Source: Halosimplex rubrum (GTDB lineage Archaea; Halobacteriota; Halobacteria; Halobacteriales; Haloarculaceae). Taken from it: a DNA stretch of 64,000 nt. Each line of letters starts with the position of its first letter. Position 1 is the first letter of the stretch. A model generated the notes under the pieces. The model saw only the letters and a list, made by a program, of their open reading frames with translations. It was not told the origin of the DNA and did not search any database. The translations under genes were made by a program, and so were the position numbers. Where the stretch lies: assembly GCF_013415885.1 (NCBI RefSeq), contig NZ_CP058910.1:2604001-2668000 (forward strand). Reading direction: 5' to 3'. Below are positions 19,664 to 37,193 of this stretch, one piece after another.

Positions 19664-20308
19664 ATGAACCCGAAGATCCTGATTCTCGGTCCGCCAGGTG
19701 CCGGCAAAGGAACGCAGAGCGAGCGCCTCGCCGACGAATTCGGCGTCGAGCACGTCACGACGGGCGACGCGCTGCGGGCGAACAAGGAGATGGACATCAG
19801 CGACATGGACACCGAATACGACACGCCCGGCGAGTACATGGACCGGGGCGACCTGGTCCCGGACGTGGTCGTCGACGCGATGGTCGGCGAGGCGCTCTCG
19901 GACGTCGCGGGGTTCGTCCTCGACGGCTACCCGCGCAACGGCGACCAGGCCGAGGCCCTGCGCGAGATGACCGACCTCGATGTCGTGCTCGTCCTCGACG
20001 TACCCGAGGCGGAACTGGTCGACCGGCTCACCGGTCGCCGAGTCTGCGAGGACTGCGGCACCAACTACCACGTCGAGTTCAACCAGCCCGAGGAGGCGGG
20101 CGTCTGCGACGAGTGCGGCGGCGACCTCTACCAGCGCGAGGACGACGACGAGGAGTCCGTGCGCAACCGGCTGTCGGTGTATCACGAGAACACCGAGCCC
20201 GTGCTGGAGATCTACGCCGACCACGACGGCTACGTCGATATCGACGGCGACCAGACCCCCGATCAGGTCTGGGAAGACGTGCGAGCGGCCGTCGAGGCCG
20301 AGGCGTGA
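19664..20308 (+). CDS. adk: Adenylate kinase
   Basis: A 214-residue enzyme catalysing ATP + AMP = 2 ADP. The P-loop GPPGAGKGT is at residues 9-17, the AMP-binding GDALR follows, [16 protein letters not shown] is the AMP/core signature, and the LID contains a four-cysteine zinc site (C-x2-C ... C-x2-C; CEDCG and CDECGG). Length and motifs are normal. In most archaea adk follows secY and ribosomal genes and precedes a DUF106 protein, cmk and cbf5; here the DUF106 gene follows but the ribosomal part is absent from the left side. Confidence 0.97.
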
Positions 20309-20373: not shown

Positions 20374-21342
20374 ATGGCACGGACGGCAGAAAAGGCGGCG
20401 TCGCTGGCCGACGAGAGCCAGTCGATGGCCGACGCGATGGCGCGCGTGCTCGCGGTCGCCGACGACCGGGGCACCGTCCAGTGGAGCGATGTCAGCGACG
20501 ACATCACCAGCGGCGAATGGGGCCGGCTCATCGAGCAGGGCATCCTCGTCGACGTCGACGGCGAGGGGTTCGTCGTCGACGACCCCGAGGGCGTCCGCGA
20601 CGCGCTCGGTGACGACGCGCCCGACGACATCGGCTCCTCCGGCACGTCGACCGGCGGTTCGACCTCGGGCGGCTCCGGATCGACGAGTTCGTCGGGCGGG
20701 TCTACCGCGGACGACGACGAGGGCGGGTGGTCCCGCTGGGACAAGATGGCGGCGGTCGCGACGATCGCCCTGTTCCTGGGCTACTCGCAGGCGCCGATCC
20801 GCAACACCGTCGGCGAAGTGATCGACATCGGCCTCGGACCGCTCGCGGACGTGTTGCCCTTCTACATCATGATCCTCGTGCTCGCGACGTTCACCGGCTT
20901 CAGCTCGACGGTGCTGCAGGGCAAGCTGATGAACATGGACAAGATGGGCGAGTACCAGGAGCGCATGCAGGAGATCCAGGAGCGCCGCAAGGATGCCAAA
21001 GAGCGCGGCGACGACGAGGCCTTAGAGGAGATCCAGGAGGAGCAGATGGAGGCGATGGGCGACCAGCTCGGCATGTTCAAAGAGCAGTTCCGCCCGATGG
21101 TGTGGATCATGCTCGTCAACATCCCCGTGTTCCTCTGGATCTACTTCATGGTCCAGACGCCGGAGATGGTCGCGGGCGCCGGCCCGGTGATGGTCCTCCC
21201 GCTCATCGGCGAGATCGCCACGTGGGGCGAGCGCATCGGCCCGATGTGGGCGTGGATCGTCTGGTACTTCGTCTGCTCGATGAGCTTCACCCAGATCGTC
21301 CGCAAGGCGCTCGACGTCCAGACGACGCCGTCGACCTCCTGA
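20374..21342 (+). CDS. EMC3/TMCO1-family (DUF106) YidC-like membrane insertase with N-terminal extension
   Basis: A 322-residue protein. Residues 1-72 look like a small winged-helix-like domain (VLAVADDRGTVQWSDV, then EWGRLIEQGILVDVDG). A Ser/Gly-rich linker of about 30 residues follows. Residues about 120-322 hold three membrane segments with a cytoplasmic helical hairpin rich in Met, Gln and Glu between the first and second core TMs (MNMDKMGEYQERMQEIQERR), the hallmark of the archaeal Oxa1/YidC-EMC3-TMCO1 superfamily. It is expected to help insert membrane proteins. It follows adk by 65 bases, as in many archaea. The N-terminal extension's role is unknown. Confidence 0.85.
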   Translation: MARTAEKAASLADESQSMADAMARVLAVADDRGTVQWSDVSDDITSGEWGRLIEQGILVDVDGEGFVVDDPEGVRDALGDDAPDDIGSSGTSTGGSTSGGSGSTSSSGGSTADDDEGGWSRWDKMAAVATIALFLGYSQAPIRNTVGEVIDIGLGPLADVLPFYIMILVLATFTGFSSTVLQGKLMNMDKMGEYQERMQEIQERRKDAKERGDDEALEEIQEEQMEAMGDQLGMFKEQFRPMVWIMLVNIPVFLWIYFMVQTPEMVAGAGPVMVLPLIGEIATWGERIGPMWAWIVWYFVCSMSFTQIVRKALDVQTTPSTS

Positions 21343-21388: not shown

Positions 21389-22639
21389 TCAGCGGTCCAC
21401 GTCGACCTGTGCGGGGTCGGGGTCCATCTTGAAGACGACGCTGGGCTCCCACAGCAGGCGGTGTTCCTTGTAGGTACCCTTCCCCATGCCGCCGTGTTCT
21501 TGGTTGGACTCGGTGACTTCGAGGAAGGCGAGTTCGCTGAGCAGCCCGCGGATGGAGTCGGTGGTCAGGTCGTCGGCGCCCTCCGCTTCACAGACCTTCT
21601 GGTAGACGTCGTAGATGACGGTCGTCCGGAACCAGTCCTCCTCGGGGCCGGTGTTGGCGGTGAGGTTCGCCAGCGCGTAGAGGACGTACTTGCTGTGGGG
21701 CGGCAGCCCGGCGATGAGCTCCTTGAGCCGCTCGACCTCGGCCTGCTCCTGGGCGCGTTCGAGGTGGTCCTCGGTCACCTCGTCTAACCCGTTGTTCTTG
21801 GCGTAGTCGCCGGCGTGTCGGAGGAGTCGGATGGCCTTGCGGGCGTCGCCGTGGCGCTGGGCGGCCAGCGCCGCGGTCTTCGGGATGACGCCCGCGTCGA
21901 GCACGTCGTCACAGAAGGCGTCGCGCCGGTTCTCGAGGATCTGGCGGAGCTGTTCGCCGTCGTAGGGGTCGAAGATGAACTCGTTGTGACCGAGACTGCT
22001 CTTGACGCGCTCGGTCATCTGCTCGCGGAAGTTCACCTTGTTCGAGATGGAGATGATGCCGATGGGCACGTCGACCTTCCCGGCCTCGCGGGCCCGGGAG
22101 AGGAGCATGAGGACGTTGTCGTCGTCGAGTCGGTCGACCTCGTCGAGGGTGATGAGCGCGGCGTCGTACTCGCGGTCAAGGATCTCCCAGAGGCGATTGT
22201 AGTACTCGTTGGTCGAGATGCCCCGCGTCGGGATGTCGACGCCGGTTCCGGGCGAGTTGATCCCGGTCGCGATGGTCTGGACGGCGTCGGCCTCGCCCTT
22301 GGCCTGGGCGCAGTCGACCGTGACGGTCGCCAGGCGGTTGGAGCGCCGCTGAGACTCCGTCCGCGCCCGTTCCATGACGTGGTTGGCGACGAGGGACTTG
22401 CCCGAGCCGGTCTTCCCGTAGAGGATCACCGAGTTGGGCGGCGACCCCGTCACCGCGGGGCCGACCTCGTTGGCGAGGTCGCGGATATGTTCGTCGCGGC
22501 CGACGATCCGCGCCTCGTCGGGGACGTGGTCGATGTTGAGCAGCTCGCGGTTCGCGAAGATGGAGTCGCCGCCGCCCTCCTCGACCGCCTGGAACAGCTC
22601 GTCACCCGTCTCCGCCGACCCGTCGCCGTGCTCCTGCAT
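21389..22639 (-). CDS. orc1/cdc6: Orc1/Cdc6 replication initiator
   Basis: A 416-residue AAA+ protein if started at the ATG at 22,637-22,639; an in-frame GTG at 22,676-22,678 would add 13 residues. Walker A is LYGKTGSGKS, Walker B is ALITLDEVDRL, sensor 1 lies in IGIISISNKVNF and sensor 2 in GDARKAIRLLRHAG. The C-terminal 130 residues form the winged helix (KYVLYALANLTA onward). It should bind origin repeats and load the MCM helicase. It is transcribed away from an 800-base region with eight conserved repeats, so it is the cognate initiator of that origin. It interrupts the usual adk-DUF106-cmk gene order. Confidence 0.93.
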   Translation of the reverse strand: MQEHGDGSAETGDELFQAVEEGGGDSIFANRELLNIDHVPDEARIVGRDEHIRDLANEVGPAVTGSPPNSVILYGKTGSGKSLVANHVMERARTESQRRSNRLATVTVDCAQAKGEADAVQTIATGINSPGTGVDIPTRGISTNEYYNRLWEILDREYDAALITLDEVDRLDDDNVLMLLSRAREAGKVDVPIGIISISNKVNFREQMTERVKSSLGHNEFIFDPYDGEQLRQILENRRDAFCDDVLDAGVIPKTAALAAQRHGDARKAIRLLRHAGDYAKNNGLDEVTEDHLERAQEQAEVERLKELIAGLPPHSKYVLYALANLTANTGPEEDWFRTTVIYDVYQKVCEAEGADDLTTDSIRGLLSELAFLEVTESNQEHGGMGKGTYKEHRLLWEPSVVFKMDPDPAQVDVDR

Positions 22640-22681
22640 GGCTTGTCCGTTCGCGTCCCCGTGGAAAAGCGTTTCCACTGC

Positions 22682-23452
22682 ACTCCGAGTTAGTTGTGGC
22701 CCACCAGCCGCTAGATACCGGTCCTGGGACGGTCTATCGTAACTCCGAACGGGGTCGACCCCACTCGATTCCGAGTTATCGGCCGCACCTCGCCGCCGGT
22801 CTCCGGTGTGCGGTGAGGAGCTGCCGTCAGCGAGCGGGAAGCTGCGTTCGCAACGATTCCGTTTCGGTGTGACACACCTGATTCCGAGTTAGTTCGCCGG
22901 TGGCCATCGAGCGTTCGACCGGACGTTCGATGGTAGGTCCGACCCGCGTCGGTTCACCGTTCGAGTACCGCGTCGAACCGCCCCGATCGCGGCGAACGAT
23001 GGGCTCGTCTCGCCTCGCGCGAGCGTGTCGACGGCCGGAACCCCGCCGGGACACCTAATTCCGAGTTAGTTCCCGGCGGCGTGGGTCGATCCGCGAACGA
23101 CGGCGGGGGACACCGGATTCCGAGTTAGTGGGGAGGCGGGTGATTCAGTGGCACACACACCCGATTCCGAGTTAGTCGGCGGGTGAGACCGTTCCGTCGA
23201 GACCGCACGTGAACCGTCCGCACTCTTCCGATTCTGCGGCACGTCGAACGGACGATCGGCGTGGCCGACCGCCGCTCTCGAACCCGTCTGTTCGCCTTCT
23301 CATTCTCTCTCGTCTCTCGTCGTTCGTTTTCGTTCGTTTTCGTTCTAGAACCTAGTAACTAGACTAGACACACCCGATTCCGAGTTAATTCGGGGGGCGT
23401 AGCGACGACCTCTGGCCTCTGGCCCCCCACTAACTCGGAATCGGGTGTGTGT
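22682..23452. repeat. Origin recognition repeats (8 copies; consensus ACACCCGATTCCGAGTTAGT)
   Basis: Copies on the plus strand have cores at 22,682-22,694 (ACTCCGAGTTAGT, degenerate), 22,766-22,782 (CGATTCCGAGTTATCGG), 22,872-22,900, 23,051-23,079, 23,110-23,130, 23,153-23,183 and 23,368-23,395. One inverted copy is at 23,428-23,452 (ACTAACTCGGAATCGGG). The better copies share an upstream ACAC(AC)CC and a downstream G-rich or CGGCGG flank. The copy at 23,051 is bracketed by a perfect 8-base inverted repeat (CCGCCGGG at 23,043-23,050 and CCCGGCGG at 23,072-23,079). Confidence 0.9.
23285..23367. other. Candidate DNA-unwinding element of the origin
   Basis: The stretch between ORB copies 6 and 7 is pyrimidine-rich and lower in GC than its surroundings. 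It contains a direct repeat CGTTCGTTTT at 23,321-23,330 and 23,331-23,340, and then four CTAG tetramers at 23,345, 23,352, 23,359 and 23,364. The adjacent ORBs at 23,368 and 23,428 face each other across a short spacer. Position and composition fit an unwinding region. Confidence 0.55.
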
Positions 23453-23533
23453 CTCCCCTGAGAAATGATCCCCTGGTGAGACCGGTCCCGAACGCGTGAA
23501 CTCGCGGGGGCGAAACGGGCGGTTCCGCAACCT

Positions 23534-23540
23534 CTATTTA
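23534..23540 (+). promoter_or_regulatory. TATA box of cmk
   Basis: CTATTTA lies 22-28 bases above the cmk ATG (23,562), giving a leaderless start just outside the origin repeats. Confidence 0.5.
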
Positions 23541-23561
23541 CGGACCGAACGGAATCGAGGT

Positions 23562-24140
23562 ATGTTGATAACCGTTTCCGGCCCAGCCGGGAGTGGCAAG
23601 AGCACGTTCGCCGCCGCGCTGGCGAACGCGCTCGAGGTGGACCACGTCAGCGGCGGCGACATCTTCCGCGAGATGGCCGACGAGCGGGACATGTCGCTGG
23701 TCGCGTTCAACGAACTCGCCGAGGAGGACGACCAGGTCGACCGCGATCTCGACCGGCGGCTCCGCGAGATCGCCGACGAGAACGACGACCTCGTCCTCGA
23801 ATCCCGGCTCGCCGGCTGGATGGCCGGCGACCACGCCGACCTGCGGATCTGGCTCGACGCGCCGATGGGCGTCCGCGCCGAGCGTATCGCCGACCGCGAG
23901 GACAAGTCCGTCGAGACCGCCCGCGAAGAGACCACCGCCCGCGCCGAGAGCGAGGCCAAACGCTACGCCGAGTACTACGACATCGAGATCGACGACCGCT
24001 CGATCTACGACCTCGTGCTCAACACCTCCCGGTGGAGCCCCGCCGCGGAGCTGGAGATCGTCCTCGCCGCCGTCGAGTCCTACGACCCCGCTGAGGACGA
24101 GGGTCGCGCGCCGGTCACCGGCGTGGACTACGATTTCTGA
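23562..24140 (+). CDS. cmk: Cytidylate kinase (archaeal type)
   Basis: A 192-residue kinase that phosphorylates CMP/dCMP. The P-loop is GPAGSGKST (residues 7-15), followed by GGDIFREMA (nucleotide-binding helix), LESRLAGWM and RIADRE, the pattern of archaeal AAA_17-type cytidylate kinases. The ATG at 23,562 is chosen because an upstream in-frame start adds an Arg-rich stretch and precedes the TATA box. Its stop overlaps the start of the pseudouridine synthase gene by one base, so the two are coupled. Confidence 0.95.
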
Positions 24141-25009
24141 TGTCCCTTCGCGGCCCGCCCGACGACCGGTCAGTCGACGATCTGCTGGAGTTCGGGGTCG
24201 TCAACCTCGACAAGCCCCCCGGCCCCTCGGCCCACCAGGTCGCCGCCTGGGTCCGGGACATGGCCGGCGTCGACCGCGCCGCCCACGCCGGCACCCTCGA
24301 CCCGAAGGTCACCGGCTGTCTCCCGATGCTGCTCGGCGACGCGACCCGGATGGCCCAGGTGTTCGACGACAGCGTCAAGGAGTACGTCGCCGTCCTCGAA
24401 CTCCACGGCCCCGCGCCCGCCGATCTCGAATCCGTCCTCGCGGAGTTCGAGGGCGATATCTACCAGAAGCCGCCCAAGAAGAGCGCCGTCGTCCGACGGC
24501 TGCGATCGCGGGAGATCTACGCCCTCGACGCCCTCGAAATCGAAGACCGCCAGGCGCTCCTGCGGGTTCGCTGCGAGAGCGGGACCTACATTCGGAAGCT
24601 CTGTCACGACCTGGGGCTGGCGCTCGGGACCGGCGCGCACATGGGCCACCTCCGCCGGACGACGACGGGTTCGTTCGACGATCGGGAGCTGGTGTCGCTG
24701 CACGACCTCGTCGACGCGCTCGCGTGGGCCGACGGCGGCGATTCGGACCCGCTTCGCGAGGTCGTCCAGCCCGCCGAGCGGGCGCTCACGGACCTGCCGA
24801 GCGCGACCATCGCCGAGAGCGCCGCCCGGGAGGTCGCCGAGGGCGCGCCCGTCTACGCGCCGGGACTGCTCGCCGTCGACGACGTGTTCCGCGGCGACCT
24901 GGTCGCCTGCTACACCCCCGACGAGGCGGCGGTCTGTCTCGCGACGCTCGCGGGCGACCCCGAGGCCGACGAGGGTGTGGTACTCGATCTCGAACGCGTG
25001 CTCGTCTGA
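24140..25009 (+). CDS. truB/cbf5: tRNA pseudouridine synthase of the Cbf5/TruB family
   Basis: A 289-residue archaeal Cbf5-type enzyme. The catalytic Asp is in HAGTLDPKVTG (about residue 53), YIRKLCHDLGLALG is the conserved motif III, and the C-terminal 75 residues (ALTDLPSATIAESAAREVAEG...) form the PUA RNA-binding domain. Archaeal Cbf5 modifies rRNA within H/ACA ribonucleoprotein and can act on tRNA position 55. It overlaps cmk by one base. The conserved cmk-cbf5 pair marks the end of the archaeal adk cluster; a tRNA gene follows 50 bases later. Confidence 0.95.
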   Translation: MSLRGPPDDRSVDDLLEFGVVNLDKPPGPSAHQVAAWVRDMAGVDRAAHAGTLDPKVTGCLPMLLGDATRMAQVFDDSVKEYVAVLELHGPAPADLESVLAEFEGDIYQKPPKKSAVVRRLRSREIYALDALEIEDRQALLRVRCESGTYIRKLCHDLGLALGTGAHMGHLRRTTTGSFDDRELVSLHDLVDALAWADGGDSDPLREVVQPAERALTDLPSATIAESAAREVAEGAPVYAPGLLAVDDVFRGDLVACYTPDEAAVCLATLAGDPEADEGVVLDLERVLV

Positions 25010-35495: not shown

Positions 35496-37193
35496 CTATC
35501 GAGATGCCTGTTTCCCGAGTGAATAAACAAATAGCGCAATCAAGAAGGAGCCAATAAACGATTCAAAAGAGGCAAGCCCCTTGCTAAACCAATTTGATGG
35601 CTGTAAGTCAGCGTATCCCAAAGTAGTGAATGTTATTGAGCTGAAATAGACTGATTCTAGTATTACTTCGGCTAGTTCTAATAATACCTGACGAAGATCC
35701 CCGCTACCCAAAATACTGCTGTAATCAATCATTTCGCTATTGGAATTAGATAGAGAGATTCCACCGATTCGTGGAAGGGGATACAAAAAGGAGCATCCAA
35801 GAATTGTCCCAATTGATAATCCTACGATACGAATTGGTTCCTCACCATATCTAGATGTAGTGTCAAGTAGATAGTTTGTGAGGACATCTACTACACTGTT
35901 ATGTCTCGTTGTATTCGAACTCCTTATTTTACGAATTTTGTGTTTACGTAGCCATCTCATCTCATTAATAAGAAATCTAGACGCTCCCTCTTGATCTCCG
36001 ATTTCATCAGATGCATTCTTGGCTCTCATATAAATCAAGGATTTATCGAGATCATCTAGTCTTTCTAACTCTTCAGAATCTCTCACTAATTCACTCTCCA
36101 CTGTGGACTTTGTCCTAAAGTGATCGAGCACAAACGAATGGAGGTCCCAACCATCATTAGAAAGCTCTTCTCGATATTTTGCAAAGTTCGTCCCCTGAAA
36201 TTCTGTATTATTAAATCGAAAATGACGGAGTAAAGGATACAGAGAGGAACTACCTAGATCTAAATCCCCGAAAGTAGCATTATCGCAGACATACGCAAAG
36301 TAGCCATTGTCATTTGATTCTGGTAGTCTTCCAGAAGATATGTTAGATTTCCTTAGATCAACCACGTGTTTTCCCATAGATTTTGGCCGGAAATCAAAAC
36401 GATCGTATTTACATTCATAAAATGAATTTTGAGCAGGCAATTCTGAATCTTCCATTATTACTTCCTCAAATTCTGACTCTCTTTGAGAATGTCTCTCTTC
36501 CACAACTGTCTGAACACAAGATAGTAACGATCCAGTACAATTTAAAATTGAAAGAGAACTTAGCTCCATATCTGCTAATACAGTCAATCGTCCGAATGTG
36601 CAATTATAAAATCCAAGCGAGAGAGATTCAGTTCGGTTCATGTGGACCTTTTTTCGAAACACGCATCCGTTGAAAATCGCTTTTTCCTGAATAACGGAAT
36701 CTAACATCCTAAAATTATCATCGAACTCTGTGTTTTTGCACTTTATTTTATTTATAGATGCGCTTGAAAATTTTACTTGCCCATTCATTTGCCCGTTCGA
36801 AATATCGACCTCATCAATATCAGCCCCAAGAAATGAGATCTCATTCTGTACATTAGAGTCTGTGATTTCAACTTTCCCATCAATCTCGCAAAAGTCAAAA
36901 TTAAGGAAAGGATCTGACGGTATCTTGTGAGCAAAGAACTGGAATCTTAGCTCGGGTAGTTTTGATCCGAGGAATACGAATCCTCTTTTGTCCTCTGATC
37001 TTATTATATTGATTAACTCTTCATAGATATCGCCCGGCTGAATCCCATTGGCCGACTTCTTCTCCAGAGACATATGAAATATACAATATTCAGACGATTC
37101 ATGAGGTGTATGTTCACAGCTCCACTGTGTACCCTCAATTTCATCGGGAATGTCTCTTTGGTGAGAGTCTGGGAATTGATATTTGCAGACCAT
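35496..37193 (-). CDS. Pentapeptide-repeat protein fused to a two-TM ion-channel domain
   Basis: A 565-residue protein in low-GC DNA. The N-terminus has a Cys/His set that could bind metal (C3, C26-x-H28, C37-x2-H40). Residues about 70-340 are a run of beta-like repeats with a phenylalanine, leucine or cysteine about every fifth residue (as in CKNTEFDDNFRM, NGCVFRKKVHM, YNCTFGRL, FNNTEFQGTNF), a degenerate pentapeptide-repeat solenoid. A charged helical linker (about 360-450) is followed by TM1 (GLSIGTILGCSFLYPLP), a pore loop SITFTTLGYADLQ (about 519-531) and TM2 (SFIGSFLIALFVYSL), the Ion_trans_2 layout. The filter reads TLGYAD rather than TxGYGD. It may be a gated pore; a defence or stress role is speculative. 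Confidence 0.7.
   Translation of the reverse strand: MVCKYQFPDSHQRDIPDEIEGTQWSCEHTPHESSEYCIFHMSLEKKSANGIQPGDIYEELINIIRSEDKRGFVFLGSKLPELRFQFFAHKIPSDPFLNFDFCEIDGKVEITDSNVQNEISFLGADIDEVDISNGQMNGQVKFSSASINKIKCKNTEFDDNFRMLDSVIQEKAIFNGCVFRKKVHMNRTESLSLGFYNCTFGRLTVLADMELSSLSILNCTGSLLSCVQTVVEERHSQRESEFEEVIMEDSELPAQNSFYECKYDRFDFRPKSMGKHVVDLRKSNISSGRLPESNDNGYFAYVCDNATFGDLDLGSSSLYPLLRHFRFNNTEFQGTNFAKYREELSNDGWDLHSFVLDHFRTKSTVESELVRDSEELERLDDLDKSLIYMRAKNASDEIGDQEGASRFLINEMRWLRKHKIRKIRSSNTTRHNSVVDVLTNYLLDTTSRYGEEPIRIVGLSIGTILGCSFLYPLPRIGGISLSNSNSEMIDYSSILGSGDLRQVLLELAEVILESVYFSSITFTTLGYADLQPSNWFSKGLASFESFIGSFLIALFVYSLGKQASR

Follow-up and report, generated by a model that had tools for sequence, protein, structure and literature searches.

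Many replication origins linked to orc/cdc6 genes have been described in haloarchaea, where they are mobile and make up an "origin pool" (Wu et al., 2012; PMC3528665); in the same study, the cdc6g gene is stated to have repeats on both of its sides. In Haloarcula hispanica, every origin requires the cdc6 gene next to it and an extra cluster of ORBs restrains oriC2 (PMC3936714), and many orc-linked origins of haloarchaea have turned out to be inactive or dormant (PMC3528665, PMC4595724). Clusters of the CTAG tetranucleotide have been reported upstream of orc1/cdc6 genes (Blow et al., 2016; PMC4752239), and in Haloferax volcanii CTAG enrichment was seen at one origin only and its role was questioned (PMC5867850). 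Although haloarchaea acquire extra origins, few accounts exist of how these end up between core genes, and a literature search returned no treatment of replication origins in Halosimplex.

The locus between the DUF106 and cmk genes of Halosimplex rubrum is likely to be a second orc1/cdc6-linked chromosomal origin, a self-contained cassette that probably came from a megaplasmid-type replicon and moved there in an ancestor shared by five Halosimplex species. The kind of element, an orc-linked second-origin cassette, is already known, and it is the relocation history that is of interest; neither the DUF106/cmk site, nor the shared slot, nor the base-level CTAG arrangement was found described in the literature searched. 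One unit can be traced on megaplasmids, beside mutS and between DUF106 and cmk, and a second unit occupies the slot in a sister species, which opens origin capture and relocation to testing with pairs of strains.

Initiator gene and repeat array

The window, that is, the whole stretch of 64,000 nucleotides that was analysed, spans positions 2,604,001–2,668,000 of the 4,480,147-bp single-contig genome and carries the order adk, DUF106, orc1/cdc6 (minus strand) with its repeat array, cmk and cbf5 (Table 1). A sequence-only reading had proposed that an orc1/cdc6 gene and some 800 bp of repeats separate DUF106 from cmk. This arrangement was confirmed, with an array of about 800 bp (22673–23450) in an orc–cmk intergenic region that is slightly longer (22640–23561). 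The same reading described adk, DUF106, cmk and cbf5 as clustered in most archaea next to secY and ribosomal genes; DUF106 and cmk are indeed adjacent in most other family members examined, with a few larger gaps of 0.6–1.8 kb, but no secY or ribosomal genes were seen near adk in the 12–32 kb part of the window that was inspected. The surroundings of the unit are ordinary high-GC core DNA (31% AT), and no other plasmid genes remain in the slot. Elsewhere in the window, an AT-rich island (35496–37193) holds a 565-aa ORF that adjoins a valyl-tRNA-synthetase-like gene and has a C-terminus (TTLGYADLQP) reminiscent of two-helix potassium channels, both as judged by eye.

Table 1. Coordinates of the genes, repeats and AT-rich box at the DUF106/cmk locus, numbered within the window.
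Feature	Position	Strand	Remarks
adk, flanking core gene	19664..20308	+	PRK14530; start set by analogy with the carlsbadense ORF
DUF106/YidC-like membrane protein gene	20374..21342	+	left slot edge
orc1/cdc6 initiator gene	21389..22639	-	416 aa from conserved ATG; TIGR02928; start common to 13 loci
ORB1	22673..22694	-	variant copy, ~44 bp upstream of orc start codon
Degenerate inverted ORB core	22740..22749	+	between ORB1 and ORB2, in every aligned locus
ORB2	22759..22780	-	
ORB3	22872..22893	-	
ORB4	23049..23070	-	
ORB5	23108..23129	-	
ORB6	23155..23176	-	
AT-rich box, probable unwinding element	23300..23372	.	between ORB6 and ORB7; 52–58% AT per 50-bp stretch vs 34% in the window
ORB7	23368..23389	-	left half of terminal inverted pair
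ORB8	23429..23450	+	right half of terminal inverted pair, 53 bp from ORB7
cmk	23562..24140	+	right slot edge; TIGR02173
cbf5	24140..25009	+	PRK04270

The orc1/cdc6 reading frame (21389–22678, minus strand) matches TIGR02928 with an E-value of 1.2e-132 and stays open upstream to a GTG at 22678, yet the ATG at 22639 is the likely start because its position is identical in all 13 aligned loci. Its product contains an AAA+ domain (AAA_16), a Cdc6_lid domain and a Cdc6_C winged helix, and can be aligned with the solved archaeal Orc1/Cdc6 structures 2v1u and 2qby. Taking an origin to comprise an initiator of more than 300 aa, at least two ORBs, some of them inverted, in the adjacent intergenic region, and an AT-rich unwinding element flanked by ORBs, the locus presents an initiator of 416–429 aa, eight ORBs and a degenerate one that include an inverted pair, and the box at 23300–23372, which is the least stable stretch of the intergenic region in terms of duplex stability.

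Seven of the eight repeats are exact copies of ATTCCGAGTTA, six in one orientation (22768, 22881, 23058, 23117, 23164, and 23377, plus strand) and the last inverted (23431, minus strand); the remaining one is the variant CTCCGAGTTA at 22683, so that all eight fall within 22683–23441, and ORB1 would lie near the orc transcription start. Only eight exact ATTCCGAGTTA sites exist in the whole genome, and the one outside this locus, at 3,120,368, is solitary, with no orc match within about 1.5 kb. The prospect that the repeats might prove to be scattered through the genome, named beforehand as grounds for abandoning the origin reading, was thus checked and did not materialize. Base composition predicts 0.43 exact 11-mers per genome and 0.00009 in the orc–cmk intergenic region, and a control pattern was found zero times genome-wide; these figures rule out chance as the source of the repeats.

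The repeat had been taken to differ from the G-rich or TTTCCA-type boxes of main haloarchaeal origins; its lack of a G-rich look came from reading the complementary strand. Its reverse complement, ACTAACTCGGAATYRGGTGTGTG, is a variant of the G-string ORBs found elsewhere in the same genome, and that strand reads CTCGGAAT..GGTGTGTG, on the same template as the ORBs of other orc genes (ACGACGGAAACGTGGGGTGTGT, TTACAACTCGAAAACGGGGGGTGTGT and TTACACTTCGATGATGGGGGG-type). A separate, non-G-string class of repeat was hence rejected once both strands had been compared, and the repeat appears to fit the ORB plan usual in haloarchaea, with its G-string in degenerate form. Over 87 copies from 13 loci the consensus is AACTAACTCGGAATCAGGTGTGTG, in which the ten core positions are invariant by selection, the copies having been picked by them, and the GGTGTG tail is independently conserved (1.1–2.0 bits). 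In the degenerate GGTGTGTG tail at the end of the ORB, the first six positions carry 1.1–2.0 bits per base and there is no run of G. The repeat remains distinct from those at the other orc loci examined in the genome, as expected of an origin with its own initiator.

Spacing between ORB1 and ORB2 is 86–88 bp in all 13 aligned loci. The 53-bp spacing of the terminal inverted pair recurs in Halosimplex, Halocatena, Haloarcula amylovorans, YIM A00010 and HArc-gm2, and becomes 52 bp in H-GB1-1, 54 bp on the Haloarcula marina plasmid, and 98–101 bp in Haloarcula marismortui and Haloarcula sebkhae, whose versions lack the CTAG cluster as well. The AT-rich box of Halosimplex rubrum carries four CTAG (23345, 23352, 23359, and 23364), a tetranucleotide strongly avoided in the window (23 observed versus 200 expected), and therewith a CTAG cluster upstream of orc1/cdc6 of the kind reported by Blow et al. 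Counted from the core of the terminal ORB, CTAGs at −33, −26, and −19 are also present in YIM A00010, HArc-gm2, Halosimplex pelagicum and Halosimplex carlsbadense, and lie at −32, −25, and −19 in Halosimplex salinum. If a cluster is defined as three CTAGs separated by no more than 12 bp each, the genome has clusters at three places: beside the oriC1-type orc gene near 724 kb, at the DUF106/cmk origin, and at 4,407,891, a place that showed no orc match within 1.5 kb. Across eight Halosimplex genomes there are nine distinct places, six of them at origin units of the DUF106/cmk type, one at oriC1, and two unexplained. Two clusters lack an Orc1 match within about 1.5 kb, the one at 4,407,891 (L251, G000:C1) and one at 3,188,978 in another genome (L241, G005:C1). 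In Halosimplex aquaticum (G001), the unit is present with its CTAGs wider apart, and no triple falls inside the 12-bp limit.

Distribution and movement of the unit

Orthologous initiators with 73–98% identity and the same repeat occur patchily in about 16 Haloarculaceae genomes; a search of 392 genomes sampled throughout the order gave none outside the family. The initiators form a supported clade, in which the seven Halosimplex members group with fair support (92/97), although some joins of the wider initiator tree involve long branches. Paralogues, at 59% identity or less, carry other repeats; because the repeat is found beside orthologous initiators across genera and not beside these paralogues, the ORB travels with its initiator.

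Only in five Halosimplex species does the unit sit between DUF106 and cmk. It adjoins mutS in Halosimplex salinum and Halosimplex aquaticum, in partly shared surroundings, and in the five species that have the unit in the slot, the 1.5 kb inspected next to mutS contained no leftover ORB core. The slot itself has other occupants: TrkA-domain genes in Halosimplex salinum, other genes in an incomplete genome (G007), and, in Halosimplex aquaticum (L116:12980–17830), a different orc gene, 36–37% identical, with nine copies of its own repeat, AATTTCACTTCGCACACGGGGTG, all on one strand. The suggestion that the origin is lineage-specific holds for the DUF106/cmk position and fails for the unit, since the Halosimplex-type initiator and its repeat are also found in Haloarcula, Halocatena, other Haloarculaceae, and on megaplasmids. 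The same orthologues in other genera and on plasmids rule out an insertion confined to the Halosimplex lineage.

Three circular plasmids of 187–318 kb carry the unit (Haloarcula marina NZ_CP100409, Halocatena marina NZ_CP109982 and NZ_CP110252), making it a good candidate for an autonomous replicator. Its ORBs are intact on both plasmids examined, each of which has a second full orc gene, which does not bear out the idea that the unit is their sole replicator. ParA genes lie near the Halocatena and Haloarcula amylovorans copies, with integrase-like genes farther off, and an IS605-type TnpB gene lies just upstream of the HArc-gm2 copy. Because the unit recurs elsewhere on the chromosomes of relatives and on their plasmids, it is in all likelihood a genuine additional origin, mobile among chromosomal sites and plasmids. 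A bolder scenario, in which DUF106/cmk is a recurrent landing site for unrelated orc/ORB units, an older copy at mutS was lost or moved, and the phased CTAGs act as a methylation-sensitive unwinding switch, is speculative and seems to us doubtful.

Proposed working and competing readings

As a second origin, the locus would be served by an Orc1/Cdc6 that binds its own eight ORBs (predicted target ACTAACTCGGAATYRGGTGTGT), a proposal based on the repeats being essentially unique to the locus and following the initiator across genera. By analogy with established archaeal Orc1/Cdc6 biology, binding at the terminal inverted pair would open the adjacent AT-rich CTAG box (23300–23372), onto which MCM would be loaded. 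Since ORB1 and ORB2 flank the orc promoter region with constant spacing, the initiator probably restrains its own production through them, and the surplus ORBs may titrate it, for which the extra ORB cluster that restrains oriC2 in Haloarcula hispanica offers a precedent (PMC3936714). The CTAG cluster may render the origin sensitive to CTAG methylation; the genome contains four PF01555 matches above cut-off, which are candidates for an orphan CTAG methyltransferase. The base-exact CTAG arrangement provides a concrete target for the role proposed for CTAG methylation in archaeal initiation.

The cassette might also be intact and normally silent, a reserve origin that fires when others fail while oriC1, perhaps together with the origins at 2.71–2.88 Mb, replicates the chromosome. 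Two of the seven origins predicted in Haloarcula hispanica lack autonomous replication activity (PMC3528665), and Haloferax mediterranei has a dormant origin (PMC4595724). Moreover, GC skew, sampled in 100 stretches of 20 kb over 0–3.7 Mb, has noisy values of about 0.02 that do not flip clearly either at 2.626 Mb, where the unit lies, or at oriC1; like AT skew and gene orientation in the same stretches, it is too weak and noisy for placing origins. The conservation of an intact initiator and geometry at 89–98% identity in seven Halosimplex genomes, and the presence of the unit on megaplasmids, argue against dormancy, which we regard as unlikely. Reducing the repeats to sites where Orc1 is titrated or acts on operators of its own gene or of neighbours, with no origin at all, would account for the bracketing of the orc promoter region at a fixed 86–88 bp, yet most copies lie 100–800 bp upstream, the AT-rich box and the terminal inverted pair show conservation of their own, away from the promoter, and copies are borne by plasmids, so that this reading is very improbable. 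That the unit is a decaying, functionless remnant of an integrated plasmid, as plasmid- and integrase-type neighbourhoods in other genomes and a patchy distribution could suggest, is scarcely credible given an intact frame, repeats conserved in five species at a shared site and in two at another, and a slot in high-GC core DNA free of other plasmid genes.

Comparison with known origins

The proposal of a second origin with its own initiator fits the anatomy of the locus, and an oriC1-type locus lies separately, near 724 kb. The DUF106/cmk unit shares with oriC1, the main haloarchaeal origin, an orc gene, ORBs, and an AT-rich box with a CTAG cluster, but its initiator is not an orthologue of the conserved one at oriC1, which can be aligned along only part of its length, with about 42% identity, and oriC1 has long G-strings. 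The oriC1-type initiator (L010, G000:C1 near 723 kb, minus strand) matches the DUF106/cmk Orc1 in two pieces and has, ahead of its AAA+ core, a long acidic stretch of about 150 residues that extends the N-terminus. A 250-kb segment at 2.72–2.97 Mb, with 39–44% AT against a mean of 32%, holds or adjoins three further orc genes, each with a G-string ORB array (L002, L003, and L004, the last just before the segment); it may be a megaplasmid that integrated some 100 kb away from the DUF106/cmk origin.

The unit resembles the active oriC2-cdc6E of Haloarcula hispanica (PMC3936714) in being a probable second origin of a chromosome, equipped with a Cdc6 of its own and numerous ORBs; the extra ORB cluster of oriC2-cdc6E is downstream of the gene, whereas the ORBs of Halosimplex rubrum are all upstream. 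With the clusters of Blow et al. (2016; PMC4752239) it has in common the clustering of a genome-rare CTAG upstream of orc genes, and it differs in that the cluster is base-exact, in 7-bp steps at −33/−26/−19 from the terminal ORB core, across genera. The family of the unit is probably the already predicted oriC4-cdc6g of Haloarcula marismortui, whose member we take to be cdc6g because the gene has repeats on either side, the arrangement given for cdc6g in PMC3528665. At 79–80% identity, and with the core repeat shared, it stands at the edge of a membership that asks for an identical ORB and an initiator identity of 80% or more, with the gene name our own assignment. Both have the same repeat, and the Haloarcula marismortui initiator, 80% identical, is encoded on a 3,131,724-bp contig. 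In contrast to the Halosimplex rubrum unit, placed between core genes, oriC4-cdc6g lies in a variable region (glycosyltransferase-type genes adjoin its Haloarcula sebkhae relative), and its terminal pair is 98 bp apart, without the CTAG cluster.
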